Positions 13,953 to 54,719 of a stretch of 64,000 nt of DNA are shown piece after piece. The stretch spans positions 1 through 64,000 of the forward strand of contig CANHWG010000005.1 of assembly GCA_947464335.1 (NCBI GenBank). The letters are read 5' to 3'. How positions within the stretch are numbered: position 1 is the stretch's first letter; each line of letters opens with the position of its first letter. A model generated the notes under the pieces. That model worked only from the letters and a program-made list of their open reading frames with translations. It made no database searches and was not told the origin of the DNA. Source of the stretch: Flavobacteriaceae bacterium (GTDB lineage Bacteria; Bacteroidota; Bacteroidia; Flavobacteriales; Flavobacteriaceae). A program made the position numbers and the translations under genes.

Positions 13953-14918
13953 CTATTCAAAAACTACTTTGCTTTCTTTATCATTCACCTCTATAGAAAC
14001 TTGTCTGCCAAAAATCAATGCGCGATTATCTCGAATATGTCCAGCAGGAAAATTATATATTATTGGAATATTTAATCCTTTGACGGTATCTTCAATTATT
14101 TCTAAAGCGTTTCTTCCCCATGGAATGTCATTATCTTTCATATCGGTCATTGCGCCAACAATAATGCCTTTTAAGCTCGATAAACAACCGTTGCGTTTCA
14201 AGTTCATCATCATTCGATCTACATGATATAAATATTCATCTAAATCTTCGATGAATAAAATTTTATCTTCACAATCTATTGCCGATTCAGAGCCCAATAA
14301 ACTATACAATATAGAAAGATTTCCTCCAACTAATTCTCCATTTGCAATTCCGTTATGATTTAAGGCATCACATTCTAATGTGTAGTGTAATTTATCTCCA
14401 AATAAAACGCTGCATAATGAATTCTTTGCCTCATCGGTTGCTCGAGCTATTGAAACAGGCATCGTGCCATGTATAGACTCGATTCCTATTCGGTTCAAAT
14501 GACTGTGTAAAACGGTAACATCGCTAAAACCAATTATCCATTTTGGGTTTTGCTTAAACTTTGTGAAATCTAACTTGTCAATTATTTTTACAGTACCGTA
14601 GCCGCCTCGAACACACCAAATGGCTTTGATGTTTGGGTTGTCCATTTGCTCCTGAAAATCGGCTGCTCGTTGGTCATCTGTTCCTGCCAATTGATGATAA
14701 TCTAAGCCAATGGTATTCCCCATTTTAACTTTTAATCCCCAGCCCTCGAGCAAATTAATTGTGGGTTTTAAATTATCGTCAATATTTTTTCGTGCGGTAG
14801 AAACGATGGCAACAGTGTCGCCCTTTTGCAAATAAGGTGGTGTAATCATCTTTTTTTGAGAATGAAGATTTAAAAAGAATAAAGATAATAGAATAAAAAA
14901 TATAGATTTATTGTTCAT
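13953..14918 (-). CDS. LD-carboxypeptidase (peptidase S66)
   Basis: 'TPPYLQKGDTVAIVSTARK', 'IKAIWCVRGGYGTVKIIDKLDF', 'GFSDVTVLHSHLNR'. Confidence 0.93.
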   Translation of the reverse strand: MNNKSIFFILLSLFFLNLHSQKKMITPPYLQKGDTVAIVSTARKNIDDNLKPTINLLEGWGLKVKMGNTIGLDYHQLAGTDDQRAADFQEQMDNPNIKAIWCVRGGYGTVKIIDKLDFTKFKQNPKWIIGFSDVTVLHSHLNRIGIESIHGTMPVSIARATDEAKNSLCSVLFGDKLHYTLECDALNHNGIANGELVGGNLSILYSLLGSESAIDCEDKILFIEDLDEYLYHVDRMMMNLKRNGCLSSLKGIIVGAMTDMKDNDIPWGRNALEIIEDTVKGLNIPIIYNFPAGHIRDNRALIFGRQVSIEVNDKESKVVFE

Positions 14919-14975
14919 TTTTGAAAATGATAATAGCAAATATAATCAAATTATAGTTTAAGAAAACCAATGCCA

Positions 14976-15059
14976 TAGCCCTGATAATAGTGAAAATCCT
15001 TTTTATTTTTTTAAAGAAAAAAAATAAAAAGATTGAAGCGGATAGCAGGAAATAGCTCC
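14976..15059 (-). repeat. Palindromic intergenic repeat family, copy 1 (no TTCGAC core)
   Basis: TAGCCCTGATAATAGTGAAAATCCTTTTT...AAAAAGATTGAAGCGGATAGCAGGAAATAGCTCC; reverse complement aligns to 43179-43284. Confidence 0.8.
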
Positions 15060-40858: not shown

Positions 40859-43177
40859 ATGGCACAAAAAAATAATTCTACCGCCACGGTCAAAGACATC
40901 AATTACTACAAAAAGAAATTTTGGAAATTGTTTTTTTATGGTATGGGTGTCATGGCTTTGTTTTTCACATTAGCTTCTTGGGGCTTTTTTGGAAGCATGC
41001 CTTCATTTGAAGATTTAGAAAATCCGGAATCCAATTTGGCTACCGAAGTTATTTCTTCTGATGGTGTGACTATAGGTAAGTTTTATAACGAAAACCGAAC
41101 ACCAATAAAATACCAAGATTTGCCCTCTCATTTGGTTAAAGCTTTAGTAGCAACCGAGGACGAACGTTTTTACGAACATTCCGGAATTGATGCTAAAAGA
41201 ACTTTTGGTGCGGCTTTAAAATTAGGTTCTAATGGTGGCGCGAGTACTATTTCACAGCAGTTAGCCAAGCAATTGTTTCATGGTGAAGGTTCTAAATTCT
41301 TTCTGTTTCGTGTGATTCAAAAAGTAAAAGAATGGATTATTGCCATCAAGTTAGAACGCCAATATACCAAAGACGAAATCATTGCTATGTATTTTAATGT
41401 ATATGATTTTAATAACTATGCCATCGGAATTCGTTCGGCTTCCAAAACCTATTTCTCCAAAGAACCTAAAGATTTAACAATAGACGAATCGGCTATTTTA
41501 GTCGGAATGTTTAAAAACTCTTCGCTATACAATCCGGTTAGAAATCCACAAGGCGTAAAAAACAGACGAAATGTGGTGCTTTCCCAAATGTTGAAATCAA
41601 AAATAATTTCTGAATCTCAAAAAGAAAGCTTGAGTCAGCTGCCAATTAAACTCGATTTCAAACTGCAAACGCACAAAGAAGGAATCGCAACTTATTTTCG
41701 TGAATTCCTCCGCGAATACATGAAAAACTGGGTTAAAGAAAATAAAAAACCAGATGGAACTGATTATGATATCTACACCGATGGATTAAAAATTTACACC
41801 ACCATAGATTCTAAAATTCAAGAACATGCCGAAGAAGCCGTTCAGGCCCATATGAAAAACCTACAACAGGAATTCTTCGCTGAACAAAAAAATAATAAAA
41901 ACGCTCCGTTTGTTAACATCACAACCGATGAAACCAAAAGAATAATTAACCAAGCCATGAAACAATCTGAGCGTTGGCGAGTGATGAAAGACATGGATAA
42001 GTCCGAAGAAGAAATCATTGCCTCTTTCAGTGTTAAAGCAAAAATGAAAATCTTCTCTTGGAAAGGAGAAATCGATACATTGATGACGCCACTGGATTCA
42101 ATCAGATATTATAAACATTTTCTACAAGCCGGACTAATGTCAATGGAACCGCAAACGGGTCATATCAAAGCTTGGGTTGGCGGAATCGATTATAAATATT
42201 TTCAATACGACCACGTTGGTCAAGGTGCTCGTCAAGTAGGTTCCACTTTCAAACCCTTTGTTTATGCCACTGCCATCGAACAATTAGGAATGTCTCCTTG
42301 TGATTCGATCATCGATAGCCCATTTATGATACACAAAGGAAGACACAATGTTACCGAAGATTGGGAACCCAAAAATTCGGACCGCCAATACCGTGGAATG
42401 GTGACTTTAAAAAGAGCTTTAGCACTGTCTATCAACACAGTTTCTGCCAAACTAATTGACAAAACCGGTCCAGAAGCGGTTGCTTCTTTAACAAAAAAAC
42501 TAGGCGTAAAATCAGATATTCCATCACAACCATCAATTGCCTTAGGTGCCGTTGAAATTACCGTAGAAGATATGGTAGCTGCCTACAGTACTTTTGCCAA
42601 TCAAGGTGTCTATATCAAACCACAGTTTATTAGTAGAATTGAAGACAAAAATGGTGTTGTTTTATACGAACCCGTTCCAGATTCTCATGATGTATTAAAC
42701 AAGGATATTGCCTATGCTGTAATTAAACTTCTCGAAGGCGTAACCGAAAGTGGCTCTGGTGTTCGTCTGCGTACACAAGGTGGCGGAAGTGGCGACACTC
42801 GTTGGACTGGTTATCCGTATATGTTTACCAATCCTATTGCCGGAAAAACAGGAACTTCTCAAAATCAATCCGATGGTTGGTTTATCGGAATGGTTCCTAA
42901 TTTGGTAACTGGCGTTTGGGTTGGTTGCGAAGACCGTTCGGCTCGTTTTAAAGGAATCACTTATGGACAAGGAGCTACAGCTGCCTTACCAATTTGGGGA
43001 TATATGATGAAAAAATGTTATGAAGATAAAGATTTGATTATCTCTAAAGATCCTTTTGAAAGACCTGATAATCTTTCTATTAAAGTGGATTGTTATGAAC
43101 GAAAAAGAGACACCATTCCTGACTCAACTGCAATTCCTATCGAAGAAGAACAAAACACAGATGAATTTGGATTATAA
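40859..43177 (+). CDS. Penicillin-binding protein 1A
   Basis: Transglycosylase 'VATEDERFYEHSGIDAKRTFGA', transpeptidase 'GSTFKPFVYATAIE', 'KTGTSQNQSDGWFIG'. Confidence 0.96.
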   Translation: MAQKNNSTATVKDINYYKKKFWKLFFYGMGVMALFFTLASWGFFGSMPSFEDLENPESNLATEVISSDGVTIGKFYNENRTPIKYQDLPSHLVKALVATEDERFYEHSGIDAKRTFGAALKLGSNGGASTISQQLAKQLFHGEGSKFFLFRVIQKVKEWIIAIKLERQYTKDEIIAMYFNVYDFNNYAIGIRSASKTYFSKEPKDLTIDESAILVGMFKNSSLYNPVRNPQGVKNRRNVVLSQMLKSKIISESQKESLSQLPIKLDFKLQTHKEGIATYFREFLREYMKNWVKENKKPDGTDYDIYTDGLKIYTTIDSKIQEHAEEAVQAHMKNLQQEFFAEQKNNKNAPFVNITTDETKRIINQAMKQSERWRVMKDMDKSEEEIIASFSVKAKMKIFSWKGEIDTLMTPLDSIRYYKHFLQAGLMSMEPQTGHIKAWVGGIDYKYFQYDHVGQGARQVGSTFKPFVYATAIEQLGMSPCDSIIDSPFMIHKGRHNVTEDWEPKNSDRQYRGMVTLKRALALSINTVSAKLIDKTGPEAVASLTKKLGVKSDIPSQPSIALGAVEITVEDMVAAYSTFANQGVYIKPQFISRIEDKNGVVLYEPVPDSHDVLNKDIAYAVIKLLEGVTESGSGVRLRTQGGGSGDTRWTGYPYMFTNPIAGKTGTSQNQSDGWFIGMVPNLVTGVWVGCEDRSARFKGITYGQGATAALPIWGYMMKKCYEDKDLIISKDPFERPDNLSIKVDCYERKRDTIPDSTAIPIEEEQNTDEFGL

Positions 43178-43178
43178 A

Positions 43179-43284
43179 TTTTAGGAGCTATTCCTGCTAT
43201 TCGTTGCAATCTTTTTTAATTTATACTTCGACAAGCTCAGTACGACAAATTAAAAAAGGATTTTCACTTCTATCAGGGCTAAAA
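43179..43284 (+). repeat. Palindromic intergenic repeat family, copy 2 (with TTCGAC core)
   Basis: TTTTAGGAGCTATTCCTGCTATTCGTTGCAATCTTTTTTAATTT...AAATTAAAAAAGGATTTTCACTTCTATCAGGGCTAAAA. Confidence 0.85.
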
Positions 43285-43292
43285 AATAAATC

Positions 43293-43991
43293 ATGATTAA
43301 CAAAAAAGTAAATTCCGTTACAGAAGCACTACAAGGTATCGAAGATAATATGACCATTATGTTGGGTGGCTTTGGACTTTGTGGTATTCCCGAAAATAGC
43401 ATAGCCGAATTAGTAAAAAAAGAAACTACCGGACTAACTTGTATCTCTAATAATGCCGGTGTTGATGATTTTGGATTAGGTTTGTTGCTACAAAAAAGAC
43501 AAATCAAAAAAATGATCTCTTCTTATGTAGGTGAAAATGCCGAATTTGAACGCCAAATGCTTTCTGGCGAATTAGATGTAGAACTAACACCTCAAGGAAC
43601 TTTAGCCGAAAAATGCCGTGCCGCTCAAGCCGGAATCCCAGCATTCTTTACTCCAGCAGGTTACGGCACTGAAGTGGCTGAAGGGAAAGAATCACGCGAA
43701 TTTAATGGTAAAATGCACATTATGGAACTGGCGTATAAAGCTGATTTCTCTATTGTAAAAGCATGGAAAGGTGACGAAGCCGGAAACTTAATTTTTAAAG
43801 GAACAGCCCGAAACTTTAATGCCTGCATGGCTGGTGCTGCAAAAATTACCATTGCCGAAGTAGAGGAATTAGTACCAGTAGGTTCCTTAGACCCCAATCA
43901 AATTCACATTCCAGGAATCATGGTGCAACGCATCTTTAAAGGAGAAAAATTCGAAAAAAGAATTGAACAACGAACGGTTAGAAAAAGATAA
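43293..43991 (+). CDS. scoA: 3-oxoacid CoA-transferase subunit A
   Basis: '[22 protein letters not shown]', '[33 protein letters not shown]'. Confidence 0.95.
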
Positions 43992-44001
43992 TTTGAAAAT
44001 G

Positions 44002-44406
44002 TGATGATTTGAAAATTTGAAGATAAGAAACGATAAAGACAATTTAATTGTAAAAATGAGTTTTGAGTTTGCTTTAAAAATAATGGCTTATTCAGAAGAA
44101 ATTCGTCAATCAAATCGTTTTGAAATGGCATCTCAAATTTTCAGAAGCGGAACATCAATAGGTGCCAATATTAAAGAAGCCCAAAATGCTGAAAGTAAAG
44201 CTGATTTTATTCATAAAATGAAAATTGCAGCAAAAGAAGCCGATGAAGTTCAGTATTGGTTAGCTTTATGCAAAGAGTCTGAATTTTATCCAAACCCGAG
44301 TAAGGAATTACACAATGAAATACAATCTATAAATTTGATTTTATCGAAAATCATCTCTTCAAGTAAGAAGTCTTAATTTTCAAATTTTCAAATTTTCAAA
44401 TCATCA
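44002..44406. mobile_element. Putative small element: four-helix-bundle gene bounded by 23-bp inverted repeats
   Basis: Left TGATGATTTGAAAATTTGAAGAT (44002-44024); right ATTTTCAAATTTTCAAATCATCA (44384-44406), 22/23 complementary; interrupts scoA-scoB. Confidence 0.5.
44017..44376 (+). CDS. Four helix bundle protein (S23/IVP-like)
   Basis: 'SNRFEMASQIFRSGTSIGANIKEAQNAESKADFIHKMKIAAKEADEVQYWLALCKES'; internal Met at 44056 is also a plausible start. Confidence 0.9.
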   Translation: MKIRNDKDNLIVKMSFEFALKIMAYSEEIRQSNRFEMASQIFRSGTSIGANIKEAQNAESKADFIHKMKIAAKEADEVQYWLALCKESEFYPNPSKELHNEIQSINLILSKIISSSKKS

Positions 44407-44410
44407 AATT

Positions 44411-45067
44411 ATGTTAGATAAAAACGACATCGCAAAACGAATTGCCAAAGAAGTAAAAGACAAGTACTTTGTAAACCTTGGTATCGGCATTCCAACATTA
44501 GTAGCTAATTACGTTCGAACTGATATTTCAGTTGAATTTCAAAGTGAGAATGGCGTTCTCGGAATGGGGCCATTTCCTTACGAAGGCGAAGAAGATGCCG
44601 ATGTAATCAATGCGGGAAAACAAACCATTACTACATTACCAGGGGCAAGTTTCTTCGACTCTGCTTTTAGTTTCGGAATGATTCGCAGTCAAAAAGTAGA
44701 TTTAACCATTCTTGGTGCTATGGAAGTTTCCGAAAATGGCGATATTGCCAACTGGAAAATCCCAGGAAAAATGGTAAAAGGAATGGGTGGCGCTATGGAT
44801 TTAGTAGCTTCTGCCGAAAACATAATCGTAGCCATGATGCACGTAAACAAAGCGGGAGAAAGTAAGATTCTAAAAAAATGCACATTACCTTTAACAGGCG
44901 TTGGTTGCGTTAAAAAAGTAGTTACTGAATTGGCTGTTTTAGAAATAACGCCCAAAGGGTTTAAACTTTTAGAACGCGCACCTGGTGTTTCTGTAGAACA
45001 TATCATCGCTTCTACTGAAGCTGATTTAATTGTTGAAGGCAATATTCCAGAAATGGTTATTGATTAA
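44411..45067 (+). CDS. scoB: 3-oxoacid CoA-transferase subunit B
   Basis: 'VNLGIGIPTLVANYV', 'FQSENGVLGMGPFPYEGEEDADVINAGKQTITTLPGASFFDSAFSFGMIR'. Confidence 0.95.
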   Translation: MLDKNDIAKRIAKEVKDKYFVNLGIGIPTLVANYVRTDISVEFQSENGVLGMGPFPYEGEEDADVINAGKQTITTLPGASFFDSAFSFGMIRSQKVDLTILGAMEVSENGDIANWKIPGKMVKGMGGAMDLVASAENIIVAMMHVNKAGESKILKKCTLPLTGVGCVKKVVTELAVLEITPKGFKLLERAPGVSVEHIIASTEADLIVEGNIPEMVID

Positions 45068-52166: not shown

Positions 52167-52535
52167 CTATTTCGAGAAAGTATAGATATAATCCTCCAAC
52201 GCTTTTAATTGTTCGTCACTCATATTTTTAGTGATGGCAAAATTGGTTTTCATAATCTCGTACTGACTTGGATCGACTATTGGTTCACTTTCTTCTCTAA
52301 GAAACGAAACGATACTACCCTTTTTTTCTTTATAAATTTTTGCTATTTCTTGGATACTAGGGCCAATTATTTTTTGCTCTGCTTGATGACAAGCAATACA
52401 ATTTCCTTCGGCTTCAAAAAGTTCTTTCCCCGAAATATTTGTGGCGGTTTTATCTTCTGAAATTGGTGTTTTCTCCTCTTTGTTTTGACAAGAGAATATT
52501 AAAAAAAATAAAATTAGAAATACGGTGTTTTTCAT
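52167..52535 (-). CDS. c-type cytochrome lipoprotein
   Basis: Heme site 'CIACHQ', 'GPSIQEIAKIY', lipobox 'LIFSCQNK'. Confidence 0.92.
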   Translation of the reverse strand: MKNTVFLILFFLIFSCQNKEEKTPISEDKTATNISGKELFEAEGNCIACHQAEQKIIGPSIQEIAKIYKEKKGSIVSFLREESEPIVDPSQYEIMKTNFAITKNMSDEQLKALEDYIYTFSK

Positions 52536-52560: not shown

Positions 52561-52668
52561 TTTTAGCCCCGATTGGAGTGGAAATCCTTTTTTTTAAGTT
52601 AAAGCCCTTCGACTGCGCTCAGGGTGACAAAAAAAGATTGCAATGTAAAGCGGGAACATGGATAACTG
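52561..52668 (-). repeat. Palindromic intergenic repeat family, copy 3 (with TTCGAC core)
   Basis: TTTTAGCCCCGATTGGAGTGGAAATCCTTTTTTTT...AAAAAAAGATTGCAATGTAAAGCGGGAAC; reverse complement aligns to 43179-43284. Confidence 0.8.
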
Positions 52669-52694
52669 ATAAAGCCCAAACCATTCGCTCCTTC

Positions 52695-52717
52695 CTTCGA
52701 CTGCGCTCAGGATGACA
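52695..52717. repeat. Solitary CTTCGACTGCGCTCAG(GATGACA) core
   Basis: Core identical to the one at 52607-52622. Confidence 0.8.
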
Positions 52718-53710
52718 TTATTTATTGAGAAGAATGGCAGCTTCTTTGGCAAAATAGGTCGAAATCAAACTGGCGCCGGCGCGCTTGATACACATTAATT
52801 GCTCCATCATAATTTTGTCGTGGTCGAGCCAACCTCTTTCGGAAGCAGCTTTAATCATAGCATATTCGCCCGAAACGTGGAAAACGGTTACCGGAACATT
52901 GACTGCGTTTTTGACTTCGCGAACGATATCAAGATACGCAATTCCGGGTTTTACCATCACCATATCGGCGCCTTCTTCAACATCCATAAGAGCTTCTTTG
53001 ATGGCTTCGATGCGATTGGCGTAATCCATTTGGTAGGTTTTTTTGTCTTTTGGGATTTCTGCGTTATCTACCGGTGCGCTATCTAAAGCATCACGAAACG
53101 GACCATAAAACGCAGAAGCATATTTAGCCGAATAACTCATGATTCCAACATTGGTAAACCCTGCAGCATCTAATCCTTGGCGTAATCGAAGAACTCTTCC
53201 GTCCATCATGTCGCTTGGTGCCACAAAATCGGCTCCGGCCTGTGCATGAGAAACGGCCATTTTTACTAGTGCTTCATTCGTTGCATCATTGGCAATATCT
53301 CCGTTTTCTATAATTCCGTCGTGACCGTAAATAGAATAAGGATCGAGAGCCACATCGGGCATTACAATCATTTCGGGGCAAGCGGCTTTGATTGCTTTAA
53401 TGGCGCGTTGCATTAATCCGTTCGGATTCCATGCTTCTTTCCCGGTGTTGTCTTTCAAGCTTTCATCTACTTTTACATAAATGTTTACAGCTCGGATTCC
53501 GAGAGCAAATACTTCTTTAACTTCTTCTACCGTTAAATCGATAGATCGGCGATAAATTCCGACCATTGATGGAATTTCTACTTGTATGTTTTCGCCTTCT
53601 GTAATAAACATTGGGAACATAAAATCACTGGGACTTAATGTTGTTTCGCGGACTAACGAACGAATGCTTTCGTTTACTCGTAATCTTCTGCCTCTTTGTA
53701 GTGGGAACAT
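52718..53710 (-). CDS. hemB: Porphobilinogen synthase
   Basis: 'DVALDPYSIYGHDGIIENG', 'SDMMDGRVLRLRQGLDAAGF', 'MVKPGIAYLDIVREVK'. Confidence 0.97.
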   Translation of the reverse strand: MFPLQRGRRLRVNESIRSLVRETTLSPSDFMFPMFITEGENIQVEIPSMVGIYRRSIDLTVEEVKEVFALGIRAVNIYVKVDESLKDNTGKEAWNPNGLMQRAIKAIKAACPEMIVMPDVALDPYSIYGHDGIIENGDIANDATNEALVKMAVSHAQAGADFVAPSDMMDGRVLRLRQGLDAAGFTNVGIMSYSAKYASAFYGPFRDALDSAPVDNAEIPKDKKTYQMDYANRIEAIKEALMDVEEGADMVMVKPGIAYLDIVREVKNAVNVPVTVFHVSGEYAMIKAASERGWLDHDKIMMEQLMCIKRAGASLISTYFAKEAAILLNK

Positions 53711-53789: not shown

Positions 53790-54719
53790 TTAATCTTCAA
53801 TCCAATTAATCGGATTTTCTAAAACTTTAATTAATTTTTCTTCTTCACTTCCAACTTCCGGATGATGGTCATACACCCATTGCACATGTGGTGGTAAACT
53901 CATCAGAATGCTTTCAATTCTTCCGTTGGTTTTTAATCCAAATAAAGTGCCTTTATCGTGAACCAAGTTAAATTCGACGTAGCGCCCACGACGGATTTCT
54001 TGCCAGGATTTTTGGGCTTCTGTATAATTCAACTCTTTTCTTTTTTCCACAATGGGAATGTATGCTTCGCAGAAACTGTTGCCGACTTCGGTCACGAAGT
54101 TGAACCAATCCTGCATTTTTATGTCTTCAGTTTCTTTACAATAATCGAAAAACAATCCGCCAATGCCTCGCGCTTCATTTCGGTGAGCATTCCAAAAATA
54201 AGCATCACATTGTTTTTTAAACTTTGGATAAAACTCTGGATTGTGTTTATCACAGGCGGTTTTACACGTTTGATGGAAATGTCTTGCATCTTCTTCAAAC
54301 AGATAATACGGCGTTAAATCTTGTCCGCCACCAAACCACGAATTGATTACTTTCCGGGAACCTGTACTGAGCGCAGTCGAAGTATCATACATTTCAAAAT
54401 AGCGCCAATTGGCATGCACTGTTGGTACCATGGGATTTTTAGGATGGATGACCAAACTCAATCCACAGGCAAAAAAATCGGCTTCGCCCACGTTGAACAT
54501 TTTTTGCATAGAATCTGGTAATTTGCCATGTACCGCTGAAATGTTGACTCCGCCTTTTTCAAAAACGTTCCCATTTTCCATCACGCGTGTTCTACCTCCG
54601 CCACCTTCAGGACGTTCCCAAATATCTTCACGGAATTGGGCCACGCCATCTACTGCTTCTAAAGCTGAAGTGATTTGGTCTTGGAGTTGGAGGATGTATT
54701 GATAGAATTTATCTTTCAT
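53790..54719 (-). CDS. hemF: Coproporphyrinogen III oxidase, oxygen-dependent
   Basis: 'WERPEGGGGRTRVMENGNVFEKGGVNISAVHG', 'SWFGGGQDLTPYYLFEEDARHFHQ', 'RRGRYVEFNLVHDKGTLFGLKTNGRIESILMSLPP'. Confidence 0.97.
   Translation of the reverse strand: MKDKFYQYILQLQDQITSALEAVDGVAQFREDIWERPEGGGGRTRVMENGNVFEKGGVNISAVHGKLPDSMQKMFNVGEADFFACGLSLVIHPKNPMVPTVHANWRYFEMYDTSTALSTGSRKVINSWFGGGQDLTPYYLFEEDARHFHQTCKTACDKHNPEFYPKFKKQCDAYFWNAHRNEARGIGGLFFDYCKETEDIKMQDWFNFVTEVGNSFCEAYIPIVEKRKELNYTEAQKSWQEIRRGRYVEFNLVHDKGTLFGLKTNGRIESILMSLPPHVQWVYDHHPEVGSEEEKLIKVLENPINWIED
54361..54383. repeat. CTTCGACTGCGCTCAG core copy inserted in frame in hemF
   Basis: CCTGTACTGAGCGCAGTCGAAGT (+ strand), read as TSTALSTG in HemF. 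Confidence 0.75.

Follow-up and report, generated by a model that had tools for sequence, protein, structure and literature searches.

What are the three palindromes, with conserved ends and a different centre in every copy, that lie between genes in a 64,000-nt stretch of a Flavobacteriaceae genome (the window), and do they act as RNA or as DNA? An earlier note had taken them for an unnamed three-copy family that is structured, mobile or functional as RNA, rather than simple terminators.

Identity of the window elements

The three sequences quoted in the earlier note are all present in the window as given, and a cmscan of the whole window against Rfam 15 returned just three matches over the gathering cut-off (42 bits), all to RF01705 (Flavo-1). 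Each spans the full model (positions 1–76) and lies far above chance (E 6e-15 to 1.2e-12; Table 1). No other Rfam family reached its gathering score in the window, and a permissive scan brought nothing credible. It is close to certain that the three elements are copies of Flavo-1, which is already a known family and in this window an ordinary occurrence. The belief that the element had no formal name was wrong, and its novelty falls with the Rfam family that already covers it. That the copies form a family was right; that they number three was not, as the draft genome to which the window belongs (2.44 Mb, 87% complete) holds 61 Flavo-1 matches, 45 of them over the cut-off.

Read from the sequence, the termini of Flavo-1 are AGGAGC and GGGCTA, and these set the bounds of all three copies; copy 3 extends further on its left (GGAGCGAATGGTTTGGG...). 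The genome contains the right-flank pattern GGATTTNCACTNNNATCNGGGCTA ten times and not once when read backwards. As described before, the centre varies from copy to copy and is always prolonged by T-run/A-run pairing. The folded (Rfam) strand is antisense to both neighbours of copy 1 and to hemB and the cytochrome c gene at copy 3, and a promoter-like TATTTTTGC of metG stands directly downstream of copy 2. Near copy 1, a pair of ~40-nt inverted repeats (83% complementary; window 43985–44415) brackets a 119-aa open reading frame (44017–44376) that matches Pfam 23S_rRNA_IVP (PF05635, 5.7e-25) and sits between both CoA-transferase subunit genes.

Table 1. Flavo-1 copies, their tips and flanking genes (positions in the window), and copies with a second type of base elsewhere.
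Feature	Position	Strand	Details
Flavo-1 copy 1	43183..43281	-	RF01705 75.9 bits, E 6e-15, match 43186-43284
Variable tip, copy 1 (aatttatacttcgacaagctcagtacgacaaatt)	43218..43251	.	other sequences stand there at the orthologous gap
Class A penicillin-binding protein gene	40859-43177	+	copy 1 gap; Pfam
CoA-transferase subunit A gene	43293-43991	+	copy 1 gap; Pfam
Flavo-1 copy 2	14976..15059	+	RF01705 71.5 bits, E 9.9e-14, match 14973-15056
S66 LD-carboxypeptidase gene	13953-14939	-	copy 2 gap, divergent; Pfam
Methionyl-tRNA synthetase gene	start ~15103	+	copy 2 gap, divergent; Pfam
Flavo-1 copy 3, long-ended form	52564..52691	+	RF01705 67.6 bits, E 1.2e-12, match 52561-52661
Variable tip, copy 3	52596..52628	.	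contains repeat CCCTTCGACTGCGCTCAGGG, common to nine copies of the draft genome
hemB (ALAD)	52718-53710	-	copy 3 gap
Cytochrome c gene	52167-52535	-	copy 3 gap
Second-base copies, genome G045	861363 (L151), 1530607 (L161), 1696518 (L162)		
Second-base copies, draft genome			L033, L036, L039, L040

Flavo-1 was proposed as an RNA motif by Weinberg et al. 2010, whose table gives it a "y" for RNA and an "n" in two columns that we take to denote cis-regulatory and switch candidates (PMC2864571). Rfam types RF01705 as "Gene; sRNA", and a later survey ranks Flavo-1 with the most abundant sRNA families of bacteria and gives no function for it (PMC9029176). In the transcriptome of F. psychrophilum, matches occur in either orientation, many are untranscribed and no consistent transcript was seen (PMC9723704). 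No relevant account of a Flavobacterium MITE or similar palindrome emerged from a literature search. The copies analysed here share arms, loops and a variable centre with the published motif (PMC2864571) and differ from the catalogued sRNA gene in that transcription signals are absent.

Fold, strand and transcription signals

We aligned the arms of 133 copies (30 from the draft genome, 30 best hits from other genomes and 73 from the complete genome G045), of which 123 passed. Over twelve core pairs 92.5% of cells are Watson–Crick; 500 shuffles averaged 75% and never exceeded 77%, and sliding one arm along the other left 11–32%. Pair 9–20 is found as CG (55), TA (36), GC (15) and AT (11), and pair 13–16 as AT (63), TA (38), GC (18) and CG (3). 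Compensatory changes are strong across the 123 copies, and this covariation, together with the conserved ends, the variable centre and the many copies, bears out the proposal of a structured family. A duplex DNA site that binds protein or absorbs supercoils between transcription units (e.g., for gyrase or a nucleoid protein) would suit an intergenic element that often lies between co-directional genes and is kept in some copies at gene ends, but it does not need arms that covary through all four pair types, and we consider such a site very improbable.

The core also carries a near-invariant A.G mismatch on the Rfam strand (120/123), a retained bulged C (118/123) and two symmetric three-base purine loops, GNA opposite GNA, again on the Rfam strand. 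The first loop has G.A in 110/123 and A.G in 115/123 copies, the second G.A in 111/120 and A.G in 86/99, with G replaced mainly by A. The pattern fits sheared G.A pairing, which is established structural knowledge, and is present on one strand only. Both the strong covariation and the two GNA/GNA loops on the Rfam strand are new here, as are several findings described below: the orientation relative to co-directional genes, the missing transcription signals, the intact copies in divergent gaps, the persistence at orthologous gene ends and the contrast between arms and tips. Wobble in core pairs favours the same strand (G.T 23 vs. A.C 2), an asymmetry that comes mostly from pair 18–11 (14 vs. 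2; 27 vs. 12 when all twelve pairs are taken), and a more favourable fold is predicted for the Rfam strand than for the complement in 108/133 copies with DNA energies and in 79/133 with RNA energies. The fold by itself cannot separate RNA from DNA, because RNA forms such loops too.

Two forms are poorly covered by the Rfam model or lie outside it: forms with long ends and a different interior, such as the one at hemB, and copies on a second base (TGGGCGTG..GTCGGGCT..ATCCCTCACGC; Table 1). The second base has its GGG/CCC stem swapped, allows GCGTG to pair with CACGC and scores lower with the Rfam model.

Gene context was taken from 60 loci (30 in the draft genome, 30 in other genomes) and 72 copies in G045, with genes from crude ORF calls in which single cases may be wrong. 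Between two co-directional neighbours the Rfam strand is antisense to them at 30 loci and sense at 9 among the 60, and antisense at 33 and sense at 14 in G045 (63 to 23 when pooled, P = 2e-5). Replication direction is an unlikely cause of this orientation, because the antisense-to-sense ratio in G045 is 20:9 for neighbours on the regional majority strand and a similar 13:5 for the others. Many co-directional copies begin no further than about 8–18 nt from the upstream stop codon. Divergent gaps hold 31 copies and convergent gaps 12, a preference that is not significant against background (P = 0.06, pooled). The divergent gaps that hold copies are probably untranscribed, and the copies in them score as well as others (Kruskal P = 0.48).

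Around 115 aligned copies, base composition reveals nothing promoter-like ahead of the Rfam 5′ end; after the Rfam-strand 3′ end stands an A-run, not a T-run, and CTAAAA lies beyond the opposite end. With no T-run directly after the hairpin at either end, Flavo-1 was rejected as an intrinsic terminator, and the earlier note was right to set simple terminators aside. No promoter or terminator belongs to the element. Its placement points to an element of folded DNA and away from the small RNA gene of the catalogue. The Rfam classification and the strong covariation would agree with a family of trans-acting small RNA genes; tens of copies per genome count against it, and we give it scant probability. 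Flavo-1 is unlikely to be an RNA gene because it has no promoter-like signal and ends on an A-run, because its integrity is independent of gene context, and because published RNA-seq is inconsistent (PMC9723704). The functional RNA of the earlier note thus survives weakly.

Spread, persistence and sharing of tips

Further copies exist in number beyond the draft genome, as had been envisaged: 58/61 sampled genomes of the genus (one genome per species) contain a Flavo-1 match, and the count per genome reaches at least 64. Copy number is 0 in G018, G020, G058 and G170 and exceeds 60 in others. Across the phylum, matches occur in at least 45/297 genomes and at least 23/140 genera, lower bounds since few candidates were scored per genome, and they thin out from genus to family to order to class. 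Carriage by plasmids or phages is unsupported: a search of plasmid and phage records gave no match at E 1e-3, a weak negative from a single 89-nt consensus query.

Flavo-1 resembles REP/REPIN sequences and their RAYT system (PMC2817692, PMC3116915, PMC3733652), which are likewise dispersed intergenic imperfect palindromes with a favoured strand and many copies per genome. It differs from them in being longer, in lacking a GTAG/CGTC end tag (GTAG in at most 8/123 and CGTC in at most 3/123 copies at any end, on which membership was rejected), in being unlinked to Y1_Tnp genes and in keeping some copies at orthologous gene ends. Active mobility as a miniature element that a RAYT/IS200-type (Y1) transposase copies in trans, in the manner of REPINs, would be in keeping with a dispersed palindrome that has a strand-specific fold and ranges from 0 to more than 60 copies within one genus. 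Against it, the draft genome has 61 copies and, at 87% completeness, no Y1_Tnp; across the 61 genomes Y1_Tnp and copy number do not correspond, several copy-rich genomes lacking the gene and two (G024 and G033) having it with one Flavo-1 copy each; and Flavo-1 lies within 1.5 kb of only 1/12 Y1_Tnp loci. Identical whole-copy duplicates, moreover, are absent among the copies compared. Mobilisation by Y1 is largely refuted, and we regard this explanation as improbable.

Integron attC sites are palindromes whose ends are conserved and whose tip varies; they often lie just past a stop codon, and their folded strand is antisense to the gene. Flavo-1 shares all of these features and differs in that no cassette arrays were seen and the RYYYAAC/GTTRRRY ends are missing; 0/123 copies have both, and membership was rejected.

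We then asked what becomes of single positions among relatives; loci were picked by best DNA match, and the fractions describe close relatives rather than the whole genus. Among 29 relatives that have the copy 1 gap, about 25 hold an element in it, sometimes degenerate, in the same orientation and with other centres. The four without it (L086, L097, L098 and L099) have hairpin terminators there, three of them an ordinary hairpin with a T-run. This hint from four genomes at one locus that the element replaces intrinsic terminators was not upheld in G045, where terminators are about as frequent near elements as elsewhere (39% vs. 33% in co-directional gaps, 50% vs. 50% in convergent ones). At copy 2, 10/29 closest relatives carry an element ahead of the metG promoter, oriented as in the window, and the rest have none. 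At copy 3, no fewer than 12 relatives have this outer frame after hemB, around entirely different interiors, and it remains with hemB in several relatives whose next gene differs. The hemB 3′ ends of L102–L106, L110, L113, L120, L122, L124 and L125, grouped by frame, read GGAGCGAATGGCTC..TTCCYGCT..ATCRGGGCTA around unrelated interiors. In several genomes of the genus, Y1_Tnp (RAYT-like) genes were also observed within about 1 kb of hemB, at G047:C25:44717, G051:C1:1606790, G031:C514:1056 and G025:C6:160856.

More broadly, for 11/30 copies of the draft genome G045 has an element at the end of the orthologous gene. Orientation agrees in nine of these cases; one of the remaining two has orthologous genes on either side (about 89% protein identity) and an inverted element between them. 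The position of Flavo-1 can last long and its orientation is not indispensable, since elements persist at orthologous ends and one of them is inverted.

These observations bear on the main rival to a DNA element, a cis-acting RNA in flanking transcripts. Here the mRNA strand, complementary to the Rfam model, would fold within a 5′ or 3′ untranslated region and influence how stable the mRNA is or how strongly it is expressed. A cis-acting RNA remains the main rival because orientation follows the adjacent genes and some sites persist, as at the PBP1A/CoA-transferase and hemB ends; the frequent start close to a stop codon and the terminators in the four genomes that lack the element at the PBP1A/CoA-transferase gap point the same way. 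However, the strand with the purine loops and the favoured wobble is the antisense one, copies in divergent gaps are just as intact, one ortholog is inverted, and intrinsic terminators beside elements are neither rarer nor commoner. On balance we consider a cis-acting RNA unlikely.

Arms and tips tell different histories. Arm identity is 0.731 in the draft genome, 0.715 in G045 and 0.720 between both, and we see no sign of recent whole-copy spread in either genome, because arms are as diverged within as between genomes. By comparison, the middle 28 bases are at least 80% alike in 39 pairs of copies in the draft genome and 52 in G045, and in 0/1,890 pairs between them; tips recur among copies of one genome but not across the two genomes compared. 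Eleven G045 copies carry a CCACGCTTTTGGGCGTGG-like tip despite differing core pairs, one of them on the alternative base TGGGCGTG..ATCCCTCACGC. The independence of tip and arm is incomplete: arms of tip-sharing copies are somewhat more alike (0.79 vs. 0.70–0.72, permutation P = 0.001), partly from the tip window overlapping the arm in short copies. The mobility suggested by the earlier note is accordingly uncertain for the element as a whole, and the tips alone look recently spread. Among loci examined, the draft-genome tip CCTGTCAGG occurs solely inside Flavo-1. By comparison, CCTTCGACTGCGCTCAGG, the tip of nine copies in the draft genome, is also found outside the element; in the window it stands at 52606–52629 (in copy 3), at 52694–52717 (beside copy 3) and at 54366.

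The folded-DNA reading and its meaning

With middling confidence, we favour a reading of Flavo-1 as a dispersed REP-like element that functions as folded DNA, not as a discrete sRNA, and has exchangeable tips. The Rfam strand, single-stranded or extruded from the duplex, would form a long hairpin consisting in order of an outer stem, a bulge on the 3′ side, the core stem with its A.G mismatch and two GNA/GNA loops, the bulged C and an interchangeable tip. A putative structure-reading protein may recognise the core, the acting molecule would be DNA, and tips may spread by short-tract conversion or tip replacement. Against the folded-DNA reading, present-day mobility is unsupported and the arms are without recent copying, and a cis-acting function of the transcript could account equally well for persistence at gene ends and for an orientation that tracks the genes. 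More tentatively still, the DNA hairpin may combine an old, slowly changing base, kept at some gene ends genus-wide, with a genome-specific tip module that is swapped within a genome largely independently of the base.

Tip sharing poses a concrete, testable question, namely how dispersed repeats exchange the tips of their hairpins. If the division into base and tip is true, concerted evolution would be acting on hairpin tips alone. If Flavo-1 does work as DNA, an abundant entry of the sRNA catalogue would be something other than RNA, and any tally of bacterial small RNAs that relies on Flavo-1 would be inflated.
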